DNA from: Paeniglutamicibacter quisquiliarum
GTDB lineage: Bacteria; Actinomycetota; Actinomycetes; Actinomycetales; Micrococcaceae
Assembly: GCF_019084045.1 (NCBI RefSeq)
Contig: NZ_JAHRED010000001.1
Span: 620,001-684,000 of the forward strand
Direction of reading: 5' to 3'
DNA length: 64,000 nt
The notes beneath the pieces were generated by a model, which did no database searches, was not told where the DNA came from, and saw only the letters and a program-made list of their open reading frames with translations. The translations under genes and the position numbers were made by a program. Positions 8,270 to 19,223 of the stretch are shown here, piece after piece (within the stretch, counting starts at the first letter, position 1; each line of letters opens with the position of its first letter).

Positions 8270-8314
8270 TTGTTGAACAACCTCTTGTCAAGATTGTTCA
8301 ACAACCTGTAGTGT
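8270..8314 (+). promoter_or_regulatory. promoter with two GntR-type operators, pyroglutamate transport unit
   Basis: The -35 TTGTCA (8285-8290) and -10 TAGTGT (8309-8314) are separated by 18 bp. The palindrome TTGTTGAACAA occurs just upstream of the -35 (8270-8280), and its reverse orientation TTGTTCAACAA lies between -35 and -10 (8294-8304). The centres are 24 bp apart. The same 11-mer occurs before pxpA (19071-19081). Occupation would block RNA polymerase, so repression by the FCD-type GntR protein encoded at 14146-14820 is the simplest reading. Confidence 0.7.
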
Positions 8315-8370
8315 ACTTCTCATCGCTCCCACTTGTGACAGCAGTCACCCGCAACCCGATGGATGGAATC

Positions 8371-9588
8371 ATGGCCACTCCTAGCACGAAACCGAAGCTC
8401 AGCACTTCAGCCAGGCGCACCGCAATGCTGGGCGCCATGTTCCTCATGGCAACCAGCGCCATCGGGCCCGGCTTCATCACCCAGACCACCGAATTCACGG
8501 TCCAGATCGGCGCCTCGTTCGCCTTTGCGATCGTCGTCTCCATCCTGGTGGACATCGCCGTCCAGCTGAACGTGTGGCGCATCATCGGCGTTTCGGGCCT
8601 GCGTGCCCAGGAACTCGGCAACAAGGTGCTCCCAGGCATCGGCTGGGTCCTGGCGGGGCTGGTCTTCATCGGCGGCATGGTCTTCAACATCGGCAACATC
8701 GCCGGTACCGGTCTGGGCTTCAACGCCATGATGGGGCTCGACCCCAAGGTCGGCGGCATCATTTCCGCCGTCGTGGCGATCCTGATCTTCCTCTCCAAGC
8801 GCGCGGGCATGGCCCTGGACAAGATCGTGGTCCTGCTCGGCGCGATCATGATCCTGCTGATGCTCTACGTGGCCATCGTCGCCGCACCTCCGGTGGGCGA
8901 GGCCCTGAAGAATGCGGTGCTTCCGGAGAACATCAACTTCCTGATCATCACCACGCTGATCGGCGGCACCGTCGGCGGCTACATCACGTATGCCGGTGCC
9001 CACCGCATGCTCGACTCCGGCGCCGCCGGCATCGAGAACGTCGGCGACATCACCAAGACCTCCATCTTGAGCATTATCGTCACCGGCATCATGCGCGTTC
9101 TCCTCTTCCTGGCCATCCTCGGCGTCGTCGCCGGCGGAGCCGTGCTGACCACGAACAACAAGGCGGCCGAGGCCTTTGGCATCGCCGCCGGCGACATCGG
9201 CATGCGGTCCTTCGGCGTGATCCTCTGGGCCGCCGCCCTGACCAGCGTCATCGGTGCCGCTTACACCTCGGTTTCCTTCATCACGAAGTCCACCACCCCG
9301 GAACGCACCCGCAACCTGCTCACCGTCGCGTTCATCGGCGTATGCGCGGTCATCTACATGTTCCTGGGCCAGGCGCCGCAGACGCTGCTGATCTTCGCCG
9401 GCGCCTTCAACGGTCTGATCCTGCCCGTCGGCTTCGCGGTCCTGCTCTATGCCGCCTGGCGCCGCCGCGACCTGCTGCAGGGCTACGTGTACCCCAAGTG
9501 GCTGCTGATCATCGGTGTCGTGACCTGGCTGCTGACGCTCTTCCTCGGCTGGAACTCCCTGGCCGGCCTGTCCAAGCTCTGGGCCTGA
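8371..9588 (+). CDS. NRAMP-fold transporter lacking the metal-binding motif, candidate 5-oxoproline importer
   Basis: 405 residues from ATG 8371 (GGATGGA upstream; an in-frame ATG at 8359 lacks a site). About 11 membrane segments with the NRAMP layout. In true metal transporters TM1 carries DPGN, whose Asp and Asn bind the ion. Here the same place reads GPGF (residues 32-35). The TM6 metal-binding Met region is replaced by GGYITYAGAHRM (residues 202-213). The protein therefore probably does not carry Mn/Fe. Being co-controlled with the pxp operon and next to a DUF1445 gene, it is a good candidate for importing 5-oxoproline or a related acid. That substrate is inference. Confidence 0.8.
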   Translation: MATPSTKPKLSTSARRTAMLGAMFLMATSAIGPGFITQTTEFTVQIGASFAFAIVVSILVDIAVQLNVWRIIGVSGLRAQELGNKVLPGIGWVLAGLVFIGGMVFNIGNIAGTGLGFNAMMGLDPKVGGIISAVVAILIFLSKRAGMALDKIVVLLGAIMILLMLYVAIVAAPPVGEALKNAVLPENINFLIITTLIGGTVGGYITYAGAHRMLDSGAAGIENVGDITKTSILSIIVTGIMRVLLFLAILGVVAGGAVLTTNNKAAEAFGIAAGDIGMRSFGVILWAAALTSVIGAAYTSVSFITKSTTPERTRNLLTVAFIGVCAVIYMFLGQAPQTLLIFAGAFNGLILPVGFAVLLYAAWRRRDLLQGYVYPKWLLIIGVVTWLLTLFLGWNSLAGLSKLWA

Positions 9589-9657: not shown

Positions 9658-10473
9658 ATGACACCCGCCAATTCGCCATCGACCGGGGCAGGGGAGCGCG
9701 CAACGCTGTCACCGGCCCAGGCACGTGAACTGTTCCGCAACGGATTGGCGGTTCCGACCGCCGGCTTCTCCCTCGGCTACGCCCAGGCCAACCTGATCAT
9801 CGTGCCCAGGGACCAGGCCTTTGACGTGTTGCTCTTCGCCCAGCGCAACCCCAAGTCCTGCCCGATCCTGGGCGTGCTGGACGCGGGGGAGACCAGCGGG
9901 GACCTGCTGAAGGGCGGGGACATCCGCACCGACGTGCCGAAGTACATGGTCTACGAAAACGGCGTGAAGGTCGCCGAACCCACGGACCTGTCCGAGTACT
10001 GGCGCGATGACCTGGTGACGTTCATCGTCGGCTGCTCGTTCACCTTCGAGACCGCCCTGATGGAGGGCGGCATCAAAATCGCCCACATCGACCAGGGCGT
10101 GAATGTGCCGATGTTCAAGACGAACATCCGCAGCGCCTCGGCCGGCTCCATGTCAGGGCCCATGGTGGTGTCGATGCGCCCCATCCCCGCCTCGCAGGTC
10201 GCCGACGCCGTGCGCATCACCTCGCGCTACCCGGCGGTGCACGGGGCACCGGTGCACATCGGCAACCCCGGGGAGCTGGGCATCACCGACCTCTCCGCAC
10301 CGGACTTCGGGGACGCCGTGGAAATCCCGGCCGGGCACATCCCGGTGTTCTGGGCCTGCGGGGTCACGCCGCAGGCGGCGGTCATGGAGTCCAGGCCCGC
10401 GCTGGCCATCGGCCACGCGCCGGGGCACATGCTCATCACCGACGCCCGCGACAGCAACTACCTGGTTCCCTAG
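9658..10473 (+). CDS. DUF1445 (UPF0317) hydro-lyase-like protein
   Basis: 271 residues from ATG 9658, with AAAGGAC upstream. Conserved blocks include GYAQANLIIVP, VGCSFTFETALMEGGI (residues near 130), YPAVHGAPVHIG and FWACGVTPQAAV near the end. DUF1445 genes often sit beside pxpABC. In the mammalian D-glutamate cyclase a UPF0317 domain is joined to another domain, so a role in interconverting D-glutamate and 5-oxo-D-proline is plausible. It follows the transporter by 69 bp and shares its operator-controlled promoter. The enzyme activity is not proved for this family. Confidence 0.85.
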   Translation: MTPANSPSTGAGERATLSPAQARELFRNGLAVPTAGFSLGYAQANLIIVPRDQAFDVLLFAQRNPKSCPILGVLDAGETSGDLLKGGDIRTDVPKYMVYENGVKVAEPTDLSEYWRDDLVTFIVGCSFTFETALMEGGIKIAHIDQGVNVPMFKTNIRSASAGSMSGPMVVSMRPIPASQVADAVRITSRYPAVHGAPVHIGNPGELGITDLSAPDFGDAVEIPAGHIPVFWACGVTPQAAVMESRPALAIGHAPGHMLITDARDSNYLVP

Positions 10474-14145: not shown

Positions 14146-14820
14146 TTACTCGTCGTCGGCCAGGTGGGCCAGCAATTCGGCCTCGGCCCGGTCAAGGTAG
14201 CCGCGCAGGGACTCCGCAGCCTCCTCGCGCTTGCCCTCGGCCAGGAGCCGGACTAGGCCGGCATTCAGTTCCACATAGTGCGAGTGGAAATCCGGCGCAT
14301 CGCCCATGGCGTGGAAGACCAGGCGCATCTGCGCCAGGACCTTGGTCATGAGTTCCTGCAGGTGCTGGCTGCCGGTGGCGCGGACCAGTTGCTCATGGAA
14401 GCACTGGTTGGCATCGGCCATCCGGGCAATGTCGCCGGCCGCCAGGGCCTTGCGCGCGTCCACGATGACCGCGGCCAGGGCCTCGACGTCCAGATCGGGG
14501 CCCCACAGGACGGCCGCGGGCTCGATCATGCGCCGCACCCCGTAAATCTCCCGCACGCCCTCGGGCCCGGGGGAGGTGACGAAGACGCCGCGGTTGGGGA
14601 TCCGGGTGATAACCAGCTCGTGGTCAAGGACCGCGAAGGCCTCGCGCAGGGTGTTGCGCGAAACCCCCAGCGCATCGGAGAGGGCCTGCTCGGAGAGCTT
14701 CGCGCCGGGGAGCAACTGCCCCTCGGCAATGCGTGAGCGGAGCACTGCGGCAACCCACGCGCCGGTGTGTGCGTGGGTTGACCCCTCGGCCAGGGGAAGT
14801 GCGGACATCATGGCGTTCAC
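14146..14820 (-). CDS. GntR/FCD-family regulator of the pyroglutamate regulon
   Basis: 224 residues. AAAGGA abuts ATG 14826, so GTG 14820 with 5-nt spacing is the better start; ATG 14811 is also possible. The N-terminal winged HTH includes LSEQALSDALGVSRNTLREA. The C-terminal FCD domain has the expected Asp/His metal or ligand residues (DANQCFHEQLV, HYVELNAGL). It is the last gene of the pxpA-pxpBC-accC operon (47-bp gap). FCD regulators bind short palindromes such as the TTGTTNAACAA sites found at both promoters of this region, so it probably represses them until the acid ligand appears. Confidence 0.87.
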   Translation of the reverse strand: MNAMMSALPLAEGSTHAHTGAWVAAVLRSRIAEGQLLPGAKLSEQALSDALGVSRNTLREAFAVLDHELVITRIPNRGVFVTSPGPEGVREIYGVRRMIEPAAVLWGPDLDVEALAAVIVDARKALAAGDIARMADANQCFHEQLVRATGSQHLQELMTKVLAQMRLVFHAMGDAPDFHSHYVELNAGLVRLLAEGKREEAAESLRGYLDRAEAELLAHLADDE

Positions 14821-14867
14821 TGGCATCCTTTCAATCTAATCCAAGGCAGTCCCGACAGCCCCAAGCA

Positions 14868-16610
14868 TTAAGCGATGGCCCCGAGTGCTTCGCCGCGGCC
14901 AATGGCGGTTCCCGGCTCCTGGGAGCCGCGGGTGAACGTCCCGGCACGGTGGGCGGTGATGTTCGATTCCATCTTCATGGCCTCCAGCACCGCCACGGTG
15001 TCGCCCTCGGCCACGGCGGCACCGTCGTCGAGCACCCACTTGACCAGGTTTCCGTTCATCGGCGCCAACAGCGAAGCGGCGTCCGAGGCTGCCGCGACGT
15101 TTTCGGCAGCGACATCCATGGCCACGCCGTTTCGGCCGTGTCGGATGGCCTCGACCAGGGATGCCGGCAGGCCGATGTCCATGGCCTTGCCGTCGACCTC
15201 GATGGTCAGGGTCTCACGCTCGGCGTTTGGCTCGGCCGCGGCGATCTCCGGGCTGGAGGCCAGTGCCTCGGCGAACTCGGATTCGATCCAGGTGGTGTAC
15301 ACCCCGTAGCGCTCATTGTTGGTGAAGTCGGCGTTGCGCACCACCGCGCGGTGGAACGGCAGCACGGAAGGCACCCCGGCGATGACCATTTCGTCCAGGG
15401 CCACCTTGGCGCGGCGCAGCGCCTGGGCGCGGGTGGCGCCGGTGACGATCAGCTTGGCCATCAGCGAGTCGTAGTGCGAGGGGATCACCGAGTTGGTGCG
15501 CACCCCCGAGTCCACGCGGATGCCGGCACCGGTCGGGGCCTCGAAGGCGGTGATGCGGCCGGGGCCGGGCAGGAAACCGCGGGCAGGGTCCTCGGCGTTG
15601 AGCCGGAACTCGAAGGAGTGGCCAATCGGGGCAGGATCCTCGGTGAGGCTGATGGGCTCCCCGGCGGCGATCCGGAACTGTTCGGCGACCAGGTCCACGC
15701 CGGTGGTTTCCTCGGTGATGGGGTGCTCGACCTGCAACCGGGTGTTGACCTCGAGGAAGGAAATCAGTCCGTCGGGGGCGACGAGGTATTCGACGGTTCC
15801 GGCGCCATGGTAGCCGGCCTCGCGGCAGATGGCCTTGGCCGAGGCATGGATGGAGGCGCGTTGCGCATCGGTCAGGAACGGGGCAGGGGCCTCCTCGACC
15901 AGCTTCTGGTGGCGGCGCTGCAGCGAGCAGTCGCGGGTGCCCACCACCACGACGTTGCCGTGGGTGTCGGCGAGGACCTGGGCCTCGACGTGGCGGGGCT
16001 TGTCCAGGAAGCGCTCGACGAAGCACTCGCCGCGGCCGAAGGCCACGGTGGCCTCGCGTACGGCCGATTCGAAGGCGTCGTCGATTTCCTCGAAGTTGCG
16101 CACGATCTTGATGCCGCGCCCGCCGCCGCCGAAGGCCGCCTTGATGGCCACCGGCAGGCCGAATTCCTGGGCGAAGGCGCGCACCTCGGCACCCGAGGCA
16201 ACTGGGCCGTCGGTGCCCGGCACCAGCGGGGCGTTGGCCCGCACCGCGATTTCGCGGGCGGTGACCTTGTTGCCCAGCGCGCGGATGGACTCGGGGGAAG
16301 GGCCGATCCAGGTGAGCCCGGCGTCCATGACGGCCTGGGCGAAGTTGGCGTTCTCGGAAAGGAAGCCATAGCCGGGGTGCACCGCATCGGCGCCGGAGCG
16401 GGCGGCGATGTCAAGGATCTTGGCCATGTCCAGGTAGGTCTCGGAACCGCTGGATCCGTGCAGGGCCCATGCCTCGTCGGCGCGGCGCACGTGCAGCGCA
16501 TCCGCGTCCGGGTCGGAGTACACGGCCACGGACACCAGCGAGGCATCCGCGCAGGCGCGGGCGATGCGGACGGCGATTTCCCCGCGGTTGGCGATCAGGA
16601 CTTTCTTCAT
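14868..16610 (-). CDS. biotin carboxylase fused to biotin carrier domain, within pxp operon
   Basis: 580 residues. Biotin carboxylase N-terminal domain ([18 protein letters not shown]), ATP-grasp domain with the glycine-rich loop [13 protein letters not shown], and [19 protein letters not shown] are all present. The C-terminus carries the biotinylation motif EAMKMES, with the acceptor Lys near residue 546. Its ATG overlaps the pxpBC stop by 4 bp (ATGA). No carboxyltransferase gene is nearby. The usual guess would be acetyl- or propionyl-CoA carboxylase, but the operon position suggests a role connected with 5-oxoproline. Confidence 0.9.
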
Positions 16611-18262
16611 GGGGTGTTTCCTTCGTGGCTTGGGGCGCCGGCGGCCCGGGGAGCATGTGGGTTTTGGGTGAGCGGGTCGACCAGTTCAAAGCGAAGCTGC
16701 GAGCCCGGGGGCAGCTGGGCCGCGGCCGGCAGGTCCTCGGCGATGACCCCGGCAATGACCGGGTAGCCGCCGGTGACCGGGTGGTCGGCCAGGAAGAGCA
16801 CGGGCAGGCCGGAGGGGGGAACCTGCAGCGCGCCGATCGCAACCCCTTCGGAAGACAGTTCCCCGGTGCGGATGCGTGTCAGCGGCGAGGAGCCCTCGGG
16901 CAGGGCCAGGCGGACGCCGACGCGGTTGGACTCGGCCGAGACGCTCCAGGTTTGGCCGGTCAGCTGCCGCAGCCCGGCCTCGCCGAACCAGTCCTCGCGG
17001 GGGCCGGAGCTGATGCGCAGCGTGTAGATGCCGTGTGCGTCGGGAACCGGCAGCGTGGAGGGCTCGGGGTTTCCGACCACGTGGGATCCGGTGACGGTGC
17101 CGACCGGCAGCAGGGTCCCGGGTGCGAGCGGGGCGGGGCCGATGCCCGACATGGAGTCGGTGGAGCGCGAGCCGAGCACGGGGTCGACGTCGATGCCGCC
17201 GCGCACGCCCAGGTAGCTGCGCAGCCCGGCGCCCGAGGGGAGAAGCGTGAGCGTTTCCCCGTCGAGCAGGGCAAAGGGCGCGTTCATCTGAGGCGCGCGC
17301 TCCTCGTCGTGGAAGTTGTCCTCCTCCACGGGGGTGATCAACAGCCGCGCGTGCGCGCCGGTGACGGACAGGACCGCGTCGCCACGGGCGCGCAGGACCA
17401 GCGAGCCCAGGAGGTTTTCGATGACCGCCGCCTCCGCGGCGTTGCCCACCAGGCGGTTGGCGGCACGGGCGGAGGAGCTGTCGGCGGCCCCGGCGGCGGA
17501 GACCCCGAGGTTGCCCAGGCCCGGGCGGCCCAGGTCCTGGATGAGGGATTGCAACCCGGGATCCAGGATTTCCAGGTGCCCGGCAGCGGCCTTGGGTGCC
17601 GCGTGCGCGGGGGCGGCGGCGGTGCGGGAGGAAAGCTTCAGCGCGGTGTGCGAGGCGGTGAATTGCACGCGGTCCTGCGGGCGGATCAGCGCGGGGTTCT
17701 CCCGATCCAGGTCCCAGAGCACCGCGTCGGTGTGCCCGATCAGCTGCCAGCCGCCGGGGGATTGGCGGGGGTAGACGGCCGAATAGTCCCCGGCCAGGGC
17801 CACGGCGCCCGAGGGCACGACCTTGCGCGGGGTGTCGCGCCGCGGCACGTTCAGGGTACGGTTCTCGCCGAGCAGGTAGGCGAAGCCAGGGGCGAAGCCG
17901 CCAAAGGCCGCGCGCCAGGTCTGCGAGGTGTGGGCATTGATGACCGACTCGATGCTCAGGCCGGTGAGCTTGGCGACCTCTGCCAGGTCCTCGCCGTCGT
18001 AGTGCACGTCGACGGTGACCAGGGAACCGGCGTTTTCCGGCGCCGTGCCCAGCTCGAGGGCGGGAATGGCGGCGGCGATCCTCCGGGCGCTGGCCCAGGA
18101 ATCGGCCTTGATGAAGACGGTGGAGGCCGCTGCAAGCACGTCAAGTTGTCCGGGCAGCGGAGAAGCCTCCAGCAGGGCGTCGAGGGCCAGCACGGAGTCG
18201 AGGTCGGAGAGCTCGACAAGCACCGACCGGGTTCCGGCAAAGCGCGTCGCTGTCACGCTCAT
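16607..18262 (-). CDS. pxpBC: 5-oxoprolinase subunits B and C, fused
   Basis: 551 residues. Residues 1 to about 205 are PxpB (AHS1/KipI-like: [42 protein letters not shown]). Residues from about 220 are PxpC (AHS2/KipA-like: [37 protein letters not shown]). In bacteria PxpA, PxpB and PxpC together hydrolyse 5-oxo-L-proline to glutamate with ATP. The fusion replaces the usual two genes. Start and stop overlap pxpA and the biotin carboxylase gene by 4 bp each, so translation is coupled. Confidence 0.92.
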
Positions 18263-19017
18263 GCGAAGCTCTTGATCGACACGCCGGCGGATTCCAGCCC
18301 TGCACGCACTGCCGCGGCCATGGCAACCGCACCGGCGGTGTCGCCGTGCACGCAGATGCTCTCGGCGTCCATCGGGATCACGGAGCCGTCGACCGCAACG
18401 ATGGTGCCTTCGGTGGCCAGGCGGATCATGTTCGCGGTGACCTGTGCGGGGTCGTGCAGCACGGCGTTCGCCTCGCGGCGCGAAACCAGGGTCCCGTCGG
18501 GGTTGTAGTTCCTGTCGGCAAAGGCCTCGGCAACCGGGCGCAGGCCCGCGGCCTGCGCCTTGGCCAGGGCGACGGAACCGGGCAGCAGCAGCACGGGCAG
18601 GTCCGAGCCGAAGGCGCGGATGGCGTCGACGACTGCCTGGGCGTGGGCCTCGTGGTGCACGATGGTGTTGTAGAGGGCGCCGTGCGGCTTGACGTATTTG
18701 ATGCCCGAGCCTGCAGCGCGGGCCAGGGCCTCGAGGGCACCGAGCTGGTAGAGCACGTCGTCGGCCAGTTCGGTGGGGGAGCAGTCCAGGAAGCGGCGGC
18801 CAAAGCCGGCCAGGTCCCGGTAGCCCACGTGCGCACCGATGGTGACGTTCGCGGCGACGGCGTCGCGGCAGGTCTGGGCTATGACGCTGGGGTCCCCCGC
18901 GTGGAATCCACAGGCAACGTTTGCCGAGGATACGGAGGTGAAGATTGCGGCGTCGTCGCCCATCACCCAGTTGCCGAAGGATTCCCCGACGTCGGAATTC
19001 AGGTCGATGTAAGGCAT
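18259..19017 (-). CDS. pxpA: 5-oxoprolinase subunit A (LamB/YcsF family)
   Basis: 252 residues, the usual family length. The hallmark N-terminus [13 protein letters not shown], then [31 protein letters not shown] and VKPHGALYN are all intact. The C-terminal [14 protein letters not shown] is also typical. It is the first gene of the operon and has a GGGGGT ribosome binding site. The palindrome at 19069-19083 lies about 55 bp upstream of the start, placing the operon under the same control as the NRAMP-like transporter. Product glutamate can feed central nitrogen metabolism. Confidence 0.93.
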
Positions 19018-19068
19018 TTGTGACCCCCGTCTCGTGTTGTTGTCCCTTAAGAATGCACTATGAACGCA

Positions 19069-19083
19069 GATTGTTCAACAATC
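19069..19083 (-). promoter_or_regulatory. GntR-type operator of the pxpA operon
   Basis: GATTGTT-C-AACAATC is a perfect 15-bp palindrome. Its core TTGTTCAACAA is identical to the two sites at 8270-8280 and 8294-8304. It lies upstream of pxpA, about 25-40 bp before a TAGTGC -10-like box on the minus strand. Confidence 0.7.
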
Positions 19084-19223
19084 TTTCGCAACGGGTTTTC
19101 CCGCGCGTTGTTTCCCGGCCGCGCGGTTCGCCGTGGCACATCGGATCGCCGCGAGCCTAGGATGGGAAAACTACAGGGCGTGGCGCCACGGGATGGCGTC
19201 GCACTGAGCAAGGGATGTGGGAC

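Follow-up and report, generated by a model that had tools for sequence, protein, structure and literature searches.

The forward-strand gene at positions 8371–9588 of the analysed stretch of DNA (64,000 nucleotides, hereafter the window) encodes a relative of the Nramp proteins, the textbook metal carriers of the LeuT fold, and raises the question of what is carried by a family member that lacks the metal-binding residues. Annotation software would name it a manganese/iron transporter. We conclude that the gene is pxpT, the orthologue of Corynebacterium glutamicum PxpT and Bacillus subtilis YcsG, and that it very probably encodes a secondary importer of 5-oxo-L-proline (pyroglutamate) that feeds PxpA/PxpBC.

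The reading frame codes for 405 amino acids without an internal stop; a second in-frame ATG at 8359 would give 409 amino acids, and the start is either 8371 or 8359. When 63 family members were aligned, the canonical DPGN of TM1 corresponded to GPGF in the window protein (residues 32–35, 8464–8475, in the context S-A-I-G-P-G-F), the canonical TM6 sequence G-A-T-V-M-P-H is G-G-T-V-G-G-Y (with GGY, residues 202–204, 8974–8982, in place of MPH), and the canonical TM3 sequence T-D-L-A-E is F-N-I-G-N, where Asn109 aligns with the conserved glutamate (E134 in DraNramp numbering). The window protein has none of the three metal-site side chains (Gly replaces the TM1 Asp, Phe the TM1 Asn, and Gly the TM6 Met), and the acidic residue of TM3 is also absent. 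The alignment revealed none of the canonical Nramp/SLC11 features (DPGN, MPH, and the TM3 glutamate) in the window protein, in agreement with the initial annotation, which had described the metal site as lost. The protein matched the Pfam Nramp family (PF01566) with 78 bits and stayed far under the cut-offs of the NCBIfam Mn/Nramp models (31 of 430 and 21.3 of 50 bits).

A structure model was built from the window protein and 72 relatives (mean pLDDT 86.7, pTM 0.85). The predicted fold is the Nramp (LeuT) fold, and the helix breaks of the model at residues 31–32 (TM1) and 201–202 (TM6) fall at the GPGF and GGY motifs. The top PDB match in the fold search was YcsG (9a52, an integrative model), with 48% identity over 397 columns. 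The comparison with Nramp structures that had been proposed at the outset gave TM-scores of 0.79 for DraNramp (8e5s) and 0.80 for EleNRMT (7qji), and amino-acid carriers such as AdiC and ApcT came next, near 0.6. The window protein therefore has the same fold as canonical Nramp/MntH (DraNramp, 8e5s/8e60) and EleNRMT (7qji), to which it is 18–20% identical, but differs from canonical Nramp in the three features named above. A phmmer search of the PDB sequences with the window protein gave no match at E values up to 1, whereas the fold search did find relatives.

Two PxpR-type operators, TTGTTGAACAA at 8270–8280 and TTGTTCAACAA at 8294–8304, lie 67–101 bp upstream of pxpT, and a further operator, AGATTGTTCAACAATCT at 19068–19084 upstream of pxpA, is identical at 17 of 17 positions to the C. 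glutamicum PxpR site. No paired operator occurred in any of 100 shuffles of the window. The pxp operon (14146–19017) is on the opposite strand to pxpT and contains, in this order, pxpA (LamB/YcsF, 18259–19017), a pxpB-pxpC fusion (CT_C_D and CT_A_B, 16607–18262), a biotin carboxylase gene with a fused biotin carrier domain (14868–16610), and a GntR/FCD-family regulator gene, the candidate pxpR (14146–14826), all assigned by profile matches. Thus pxpT and pxpA are approximately 10 kb apart and have the operator in common, as the initial annotation had claimed for the gene and the 5-oxoprolinase operon. The match between the operator and the proven site, together with the GntR/FCD gene in the pxp operon, suggests that PxpR may control pxpT of the window. 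The gene next after pxpT was also recognized correctly as DUF1445 (PF07286, D-glutamate cyclase family; 9658–10473, forward strand, 219.6 bits); its frame is open from 9619, and the gap to pxpT is 69 bp counted from the ATG at 9658.

C. glutamicum PxpT (cg1142) resembles the window protein in that it is a Nramp-family protein tied to pxpABC, with a GntR-type regulator and the identical 17-bp operator, which is supported by reporter mutants (PMC13274462). According to the same paper, published in May 2026, C. glutamicum cannot grow on 5-oxoproline once pxpT is deleted, a defect that was complemented. The repressor PxpR, which acts through this operator sequence, binds 5-oxoproline with a KD of 726 nM and does not bind L-Glu. 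A deletion of B. subtilis ycsG, cited there, blocks the use of 5-oxoproline as a nitrogen source. The proposal that the window gene encodes a 5-oxoproline importer is upheld in its core by the growth requirement for C. glutamicum PxpT, but it was already in print, and transport itself is deduced from such evidence. We found no direct measurement of 5-oxoproline transport, including by a word search of the accessible text of PMC13274462, whose authors leave metal transport by PxpT possible. The window differs from C. glutamicum in that its pxpT lies approximately 10 kb from pxpA, with a doubled operator of its own and an adjoining DUF1445 gene, and in that its pxp operon has the fused PxpBC and the biotin carboxylase-carrier gene. 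Corynebacterium relatives among the best 80 of at least 579 matches, a comparison without cg1142 itself, were 62–73% identical to the window protein.

These matches came from a scan of genome contigs in which at least 579 of 596 GPGF stretches were confirmed; we studied the best 80 as orthologues, which according to their titles all come from actinobacteria and which are 61–94% identical to the window protein. Genes at each locus were counted at matches above 60 bits, and contig ends cut some of the 80 loci. PxpBC was found at 69, PxpA at 64, and either at 71 of these best 80 loci; DUF1445 was found at 64, and 16 had no DUF1445 match above 60 bits. At least one of pxpA, pxpBC, and DUF1445 was present at 79 of the 80 loci, the exception being L073. 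These counts show the clustering with pxp genes across genomes for which the initial annotation had proposed a check, and the opposite outcome, homologues mostly away from pxp genes, does not hold. A biotin carboxylase-carrier match was found at 34 of the same 80 loci. GPGF was present in all 80 orthologues, partly by construction because one of the two search patterns held GPGF, and the TM6 sequence GG[TS]xGGY was likewise present in all 80 (one reads GGSVGGY). The exact operator core TTGTTSAACAA occurred within 450 bp upstream of pxpT at 62 of the 80 loci and with at most one mismatch at 66, and the other 14 had none that good. Across these 80 loci, 83 sites were found in 35,963 upstream positions versus 37 in 1,505,641 positions elsewhere, and those elsewhere may include operators of a pxpA that stands apart from pxpT. 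One Arthrobacter locus (L039) carries a tandem pair of pxpT-like frames, at 8355 and 9896.

Eight relatives found by whole-protein search of a plasmid collection were studied, from Rhizobium, Klebsiella, Acinetobacter baumannii, Fusobacterium, Lactiplantibacillus, Proteus, Bartonella, and Deinococcus (Proteobacteria, Fusobacteriota, Bacillota, and Deinococcota); GPGF was present in 8/8, and pxpA adjoined the gene in 8/8. On a Klebsiella quasipneumoniae plasmid (L022), the entire pxpT-pxpA-DUF1445-pxpBC-biotin carboxylase set is flanked by insertion sequences, and 93 Klebsiella plasmid records matched the transporter. A phylum-wide search with the window protein covered 296 genomes and met no further GPGF gene, which indicates that the GPGF family is thinly spread in this sample; 16 of the 296 genomes contained distant relatives with 22–28% identity. 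Judged by its sequence, the window gene belongs to the PxpT/YcsG ('G-motif 3') group, on the basis of the TM1 GPGF, the TM6 GGxVGGY, and the pxp linkage. A preprint places MntG (YcsG) in this group and calls the other Nramp-related groups, except the NRMT-like one, uncharacterised (PMC12873925), and a second describes its aligned set as likely metal transporters and the specificity of most Nramp-related proteins as unknown (PMC13060092). No mention of 5-oxoproline for Nramp-related proteins was seen in the accessible text of these two or of PMC4072509.

The genome that contains the window has three Nramp-family genes, with GPGF, VGAAD (G000:C1:734984-736039, L001/L125), and VGSGE (G000:C23:91162-92289, L003/L126) in TM1, and none of them is a DPGN Nramp. 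The VGAAD and VGSGE proteins, as well as one haloarchaeal GPGT protein, exceed the cut-off of the NCBI model named 'Nramp family divalent metal transporter'. The genome also encodes two metal-binding proteins of the ZnuA/MntC type (G000:C1:454596-455387, L222; G000:C35:52225-53184, L223), which are candidates for Mn/Zn uptake; one of the two genes adjoins a frame read by eye as an ABC ATPase.

The specificity of the oxoprolinase linkage was examined within the Nramp family. The survey covered the over-cut-off Nramp-family matches in 148 genomes of the phylum of the window (103 of 109, leaving out the fragmentary or broken genes of G064, G127, G090, and G028, the window gene, and L118) and six genes from the phylum-wide protein search. 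Approximately 20 kb around each gene was read, less at contig ends, for frames of at least 330 codons (n = 109), and a PxpA, PxpBC, HyuA, or HyuB match above 60 bits was taken as an oxoprolinase gene. Such genes were present around 10 of 11 GPGT frames versus 1 of the 98 other Nramp-family frames, with 0/23 for DPGN and 0/34 for DAGG. When the six added genes were left out (103 frames), the values were 8/8 versus 1/95 (Fisher p 3.8e-11, which overstates the significance, as genomes from a single family do not count as independent samples). The sole exception outside GPGT is a VGAGD gene that shares its locus with a GPGT-HyuAB set. As a positive control, an MgtE_N/CBS neighbour within 5 kb was found for 23/34 DAGG (NRMT-like), 3/3 DSGG, and 0/23 DPGN genes; an MgtE-like partner had been reported earlier for NrmT (PMC4072509). 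An NRMT-type Mg importer was rejected for the window protein because its TM1 tetrad has no Asp (the DAGG type has one) and because the contig of pxpT carries no MgtE_N gene; both MgtE_N matches of the genome lie on other contigs. No neighbour of the VGSGE group was common to more than one other surveyed locus. A tie to gamma-glutamyl metabolism was also seen for the VGAGD type, a further group without DPGN: 7 of 15 VGA[GA]D-class genes (L109 4396–5724, L203–L206, L211, and L212) have a gamma-glutamyltranspeptidase gene within 5 kb, matching PF01019 in the two cases scanned.

With regard to the 11 bacterial GPGT genes, five adjoin HyuA-HyuB, four of them in the order DUF1445-GPGT-HyuA-HyuB, and one (L171) is in a pxpB-pxpC-accB-accC-DUF1445-pxpA-GPGT operon (accB and accC named by eye). 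At L112, L113, L115, and L116, pxpA is a neighbour of the GPGT gene rather than an operon mate because it lies 4–7 kb away on the opposite strand, and one gene has no oxoprolinase gene nearby. Half of the linked bacterial cases thus pair with HyuAB, an oxoprolinase family unrelated to Pxp, and DUF1445 is found at 9 of the 11 loci. A further GPGT gene (L118, 2510–3838) is broken by a TAG and lies on an 8.6 kb contig with 0 oxoprolinase matches; its inclusion would change the proportion to 10/12. In haloarchaea, HyuA and then HyuB directly follow the GPGT gene in 6/6 loci read, all six with IGPGT. These plasmid operons (L028, L218, L219, L221, L226, and L227) are preceded by a CopG-type regulator gene, and behind the operon are an Asp/Glu-racemase-family gene in two and a 'maleate cis-trans isomerase' gene in Halocatena. 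A Natrinema gene (L220; 29% identity to GPGT, TM1 FGSGS) belongs to neither the GPGF nor the GPGT group, and no annotated oxoprolinase was found in the 13 kb read around it.

In the phylogenetic tree, GPGF and GPGT each form one side of a branch (support 100/100 and 100/99), and GPGF was placed with a long-branched GPGS pair at weak support (88/45). The identity between GPGF and GPGT proteins is approximately 22–28%. We do not claim two independent origins of the oxoprolinase linkage because a tree in which GPGF and GPGT were constrained to one clade was not rejected (p-AU 0.153). A TM3 Gly-Asn and a TM6 Tyr are common to both groups and missing from the DPGN and DAGG-type consensus. The GPGT clade is apparently the SLC11 'orphan' outgroup, since the residues reported for the latter (h3 Y and N, h6 V-Y, and A228T; PMC10606218) fit the GPGT consensus. 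This outgroup resembles PxpT in the absence of DPGN, in its position beside oxoprolinase genes, and in the TM3 and TM6 residues, but differs in its low identity and in its partner, which is partly the unrelated HyuA/HyuB. In the literature searched we found no paper on the link between GPGT and HyuAB, and none of the matches listed in the literature search treated Nramp and hydantoinase together.

These results suggest how PxpT may work. In APC amino-acid carriers, the backbone of the unwound helices holds the carboxylate of the substrate. The main-chain groups of unwound TM1 and TM6 have been described as the binding elements (PMC5809530). In PxpT, the change of the TM1 Asp to Gly would remove a metal ligand and free the unwound TM1 backbone to hold a carboxylate, so that the backbone amides of the unwound GPG in TM1 might bind that of 5-oxoproline, as in the carriers of the APC superfamily. 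Likely side-chain contacts, to judge by invariance and position, are Q38 and T39 (TM1), N109 (TM3), and Y204 (TM6). The compound carried would be 5-oxoproline itself, imported by a rocking-bundle movement through the LeuT-fold pocket and coupled to H+ or Na+. PxpA/PxpBC would then open the ring to give glutamate, and the candidate PxpR of the window would free both promoters upon entry of 5-oxoproline.

The alternative that survives best overlaps with this reading, namely that PxpT imports a close relative of 5-oxoproline (5-oxo-D-proline, D-glutamate, or several small lactams) on which the DUF1445 enzyme then acts. Going by the Pfam name, we take the DUF1445 proteins of pxp loci to be enzymes that may form 5-oxo-D-proline from D-glutamate. 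The DUF1445 gene adjoins pxpT in the window and accompanies it at 64 of the best 80 of at least 579 loci and its GPGT counterpart at 9/11, and the racemase-family gene of two haloarchaeal GPGT operons points in the same direction. However, C. glutamicum grows on the L form by means of PxpT and its PxpR binds 5-oxoproline and not L-Glu (PMC13274462), and 16 of the same 80 loci lack a DUF1445 match above 60 bits. We consider import of such a relative unlikely, though well ahead of the explanations that follow.

The window protein could instead import a divalent metal (Mn2+), and the linked pxp genes would then give metabolic support, a scheme put forward for YcsG/MntG and MumT. The Nramp fold is consistent with this, and EleNRMT, from another DPGN-less clade, lacks the canonical motif and yet carries Mg/Mn (PMC12873925, PMC13060092), so a missing DPGN alone does not exclude metals. 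The published support is the cell-Mn phenotypes. B. subtilis YcsG ('MntG') resembles the window protein in sequence and in an operon that contains ycsG, pxpA, ycsI, and pxpBC, but differs in that it is described as a Mn importer and that MntR, AhrC, and CcpA are reported to control it. Cells that overexpress ycsG contain more Mn, its promoter is bound by MntR, and a strain lacking mntH, mntA, and ycsG could be made only when ycsG was supplied at an ectopic site (PMC10448178). The authors of that study add that polarity on pxpBC may account for the 5-oxoproline phenotype described earlier for ycsG; polar effects would not explain the triple-mutant result itself, because the ectopic copy rescued the strain (PMC10448178). 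In A. baumannii, cells without mumT contain less Mn, a loss that is reversed when the gene is supplied in trans, and they tolerate more Mn (PMC5050338); MumT is published as a Mn importer in PMC11796373 as well. No purified-transport assay was seen behind either claim in the accessible text of PMC10448178 and PMC5050338, but the phenotypes are genuine experimental results.

The published mumT-L-U-H-C operon combines the Mn transporter with a urea carboxylase and is placed under a LysR regulator (PMC5050338). In the A. baumannii record examined here (L023, NZ_CP104448.1, 7947–14154), five genes are arranged as pxpT-pxpA-DUF1445-pxpBC-biotin carboxylase, and the transporter is 51% identical to the window protein, with MGPGF in TM1. 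This locus appears to be the mum operon, matched by gene content and order and not by accession, and it carries the gene set of a pxp operon. Because L023 shares the five-gene layout, the mum proteins named 'urea carboxylase' and 'allophanate hydrolase' look like pxp members. No connection between MumT and oxoproline was found in the literature searched, a scope outside which most subscription papers fell; the two terms co-occurred in nine papers, all of which were unrelated by title.

Against Mn import stand the sequence of the window protein, in which neither the three side chains that bind the metal nor the acidic residue of TM3 remain, and the behaviour of DraNramp, in which the TM1 Asp is described as 'strictly required' for Mn transport and the D56G variant shows none (PMC13060092). 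The window genome has no DPGN Nramp, but Mn uptake has another candidate in it because of the two ZnuA/MntC-kind binding proteins, presumed components of metal ABC systems, and the operator of pxpT is that of the 5-oxoproline repressor. On motif, neighbours, and operator, we reject an ordinary metal importer as the best reading; it is kept as a rival owing to the published phenotypes, and we regard it as improbable.

CitM-kind citrate carriers couple citrate to a divalent cation. PxpT might similarly couple 5-oxoproline to such a cation, or carry a Mn2+:5-oxoproline chelate, which would account for both the growth defect on 5-oxoproline and the Mn phenotypes; the canonical site of the window protein appears from the sequence to be without any acidic residue, and this reading is still more doubtful than Mn import. 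Export of 5-oxoproline as a detoxification valve is the least credible reading, since, although every cell forms the compound and it builds up both within and outside pxp mutants of B. subtilis, the C. glutamicum pxpT deletion stops growth on external 5-oxoproline and is complemented (PMC13274462).

The proposed import of 5-oxoproline by PxpT also bears on the history of the family. The initial annotation had the transporter evolve from the Nramp fold, and the direction is probably the reverse: in a published rooted tree, the DPGN-less Nramp-related groups are paraphyletic and lie outside the canonical Nramps (PMC12873925), and an older paper already sees the outgroup as bridging the metal carriers and carriers whose substrates are not metals (PMC4072509). 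We tentatively propose, at slightly less than even chances, that the GPG-motif Nramp relatives (GPGF and GPGT) are importers of 5-oxoproline or lactams whose partners, in bacteria and in haloarchaea, come from two oxoprolinase families unrelated to each other, that some VGAGD relatives beside gamma-glutamyltranspeptidase may handle another gamma-glutamyl metabolite, that metal transport by Nramps arose when an amino-acid-like carrier acquired the TM1 Asp, and that the Mn reports on MntG and MumT reflect indirect effects of a 5-oxoproline operon.

The role in 5-oxoproline use was published for the C. glutamicum orthologue, and the present analysis adds the survey of orthologue linkage, the match to the mum operon, and the link between GPGT and HyuAB. 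It exposes a conflict, in that metal claims have been made for proteins without a metal site, one of them encoded in an operon with the gene content of pxp. If the proposal is true, the GPG-type Nramp relatives now named 'divalent metal transporter' are misnamed (at least 579 GPGF stretches), and the two Mn-importer claims (MntG, and MumT, which is tied to fitness in mice) call for a direct test, for which the GPGT/HyuAB pair provides an independent system. The origin of Nramp metal selectivity would then be open to study as a switch at one glycine/aspartate.
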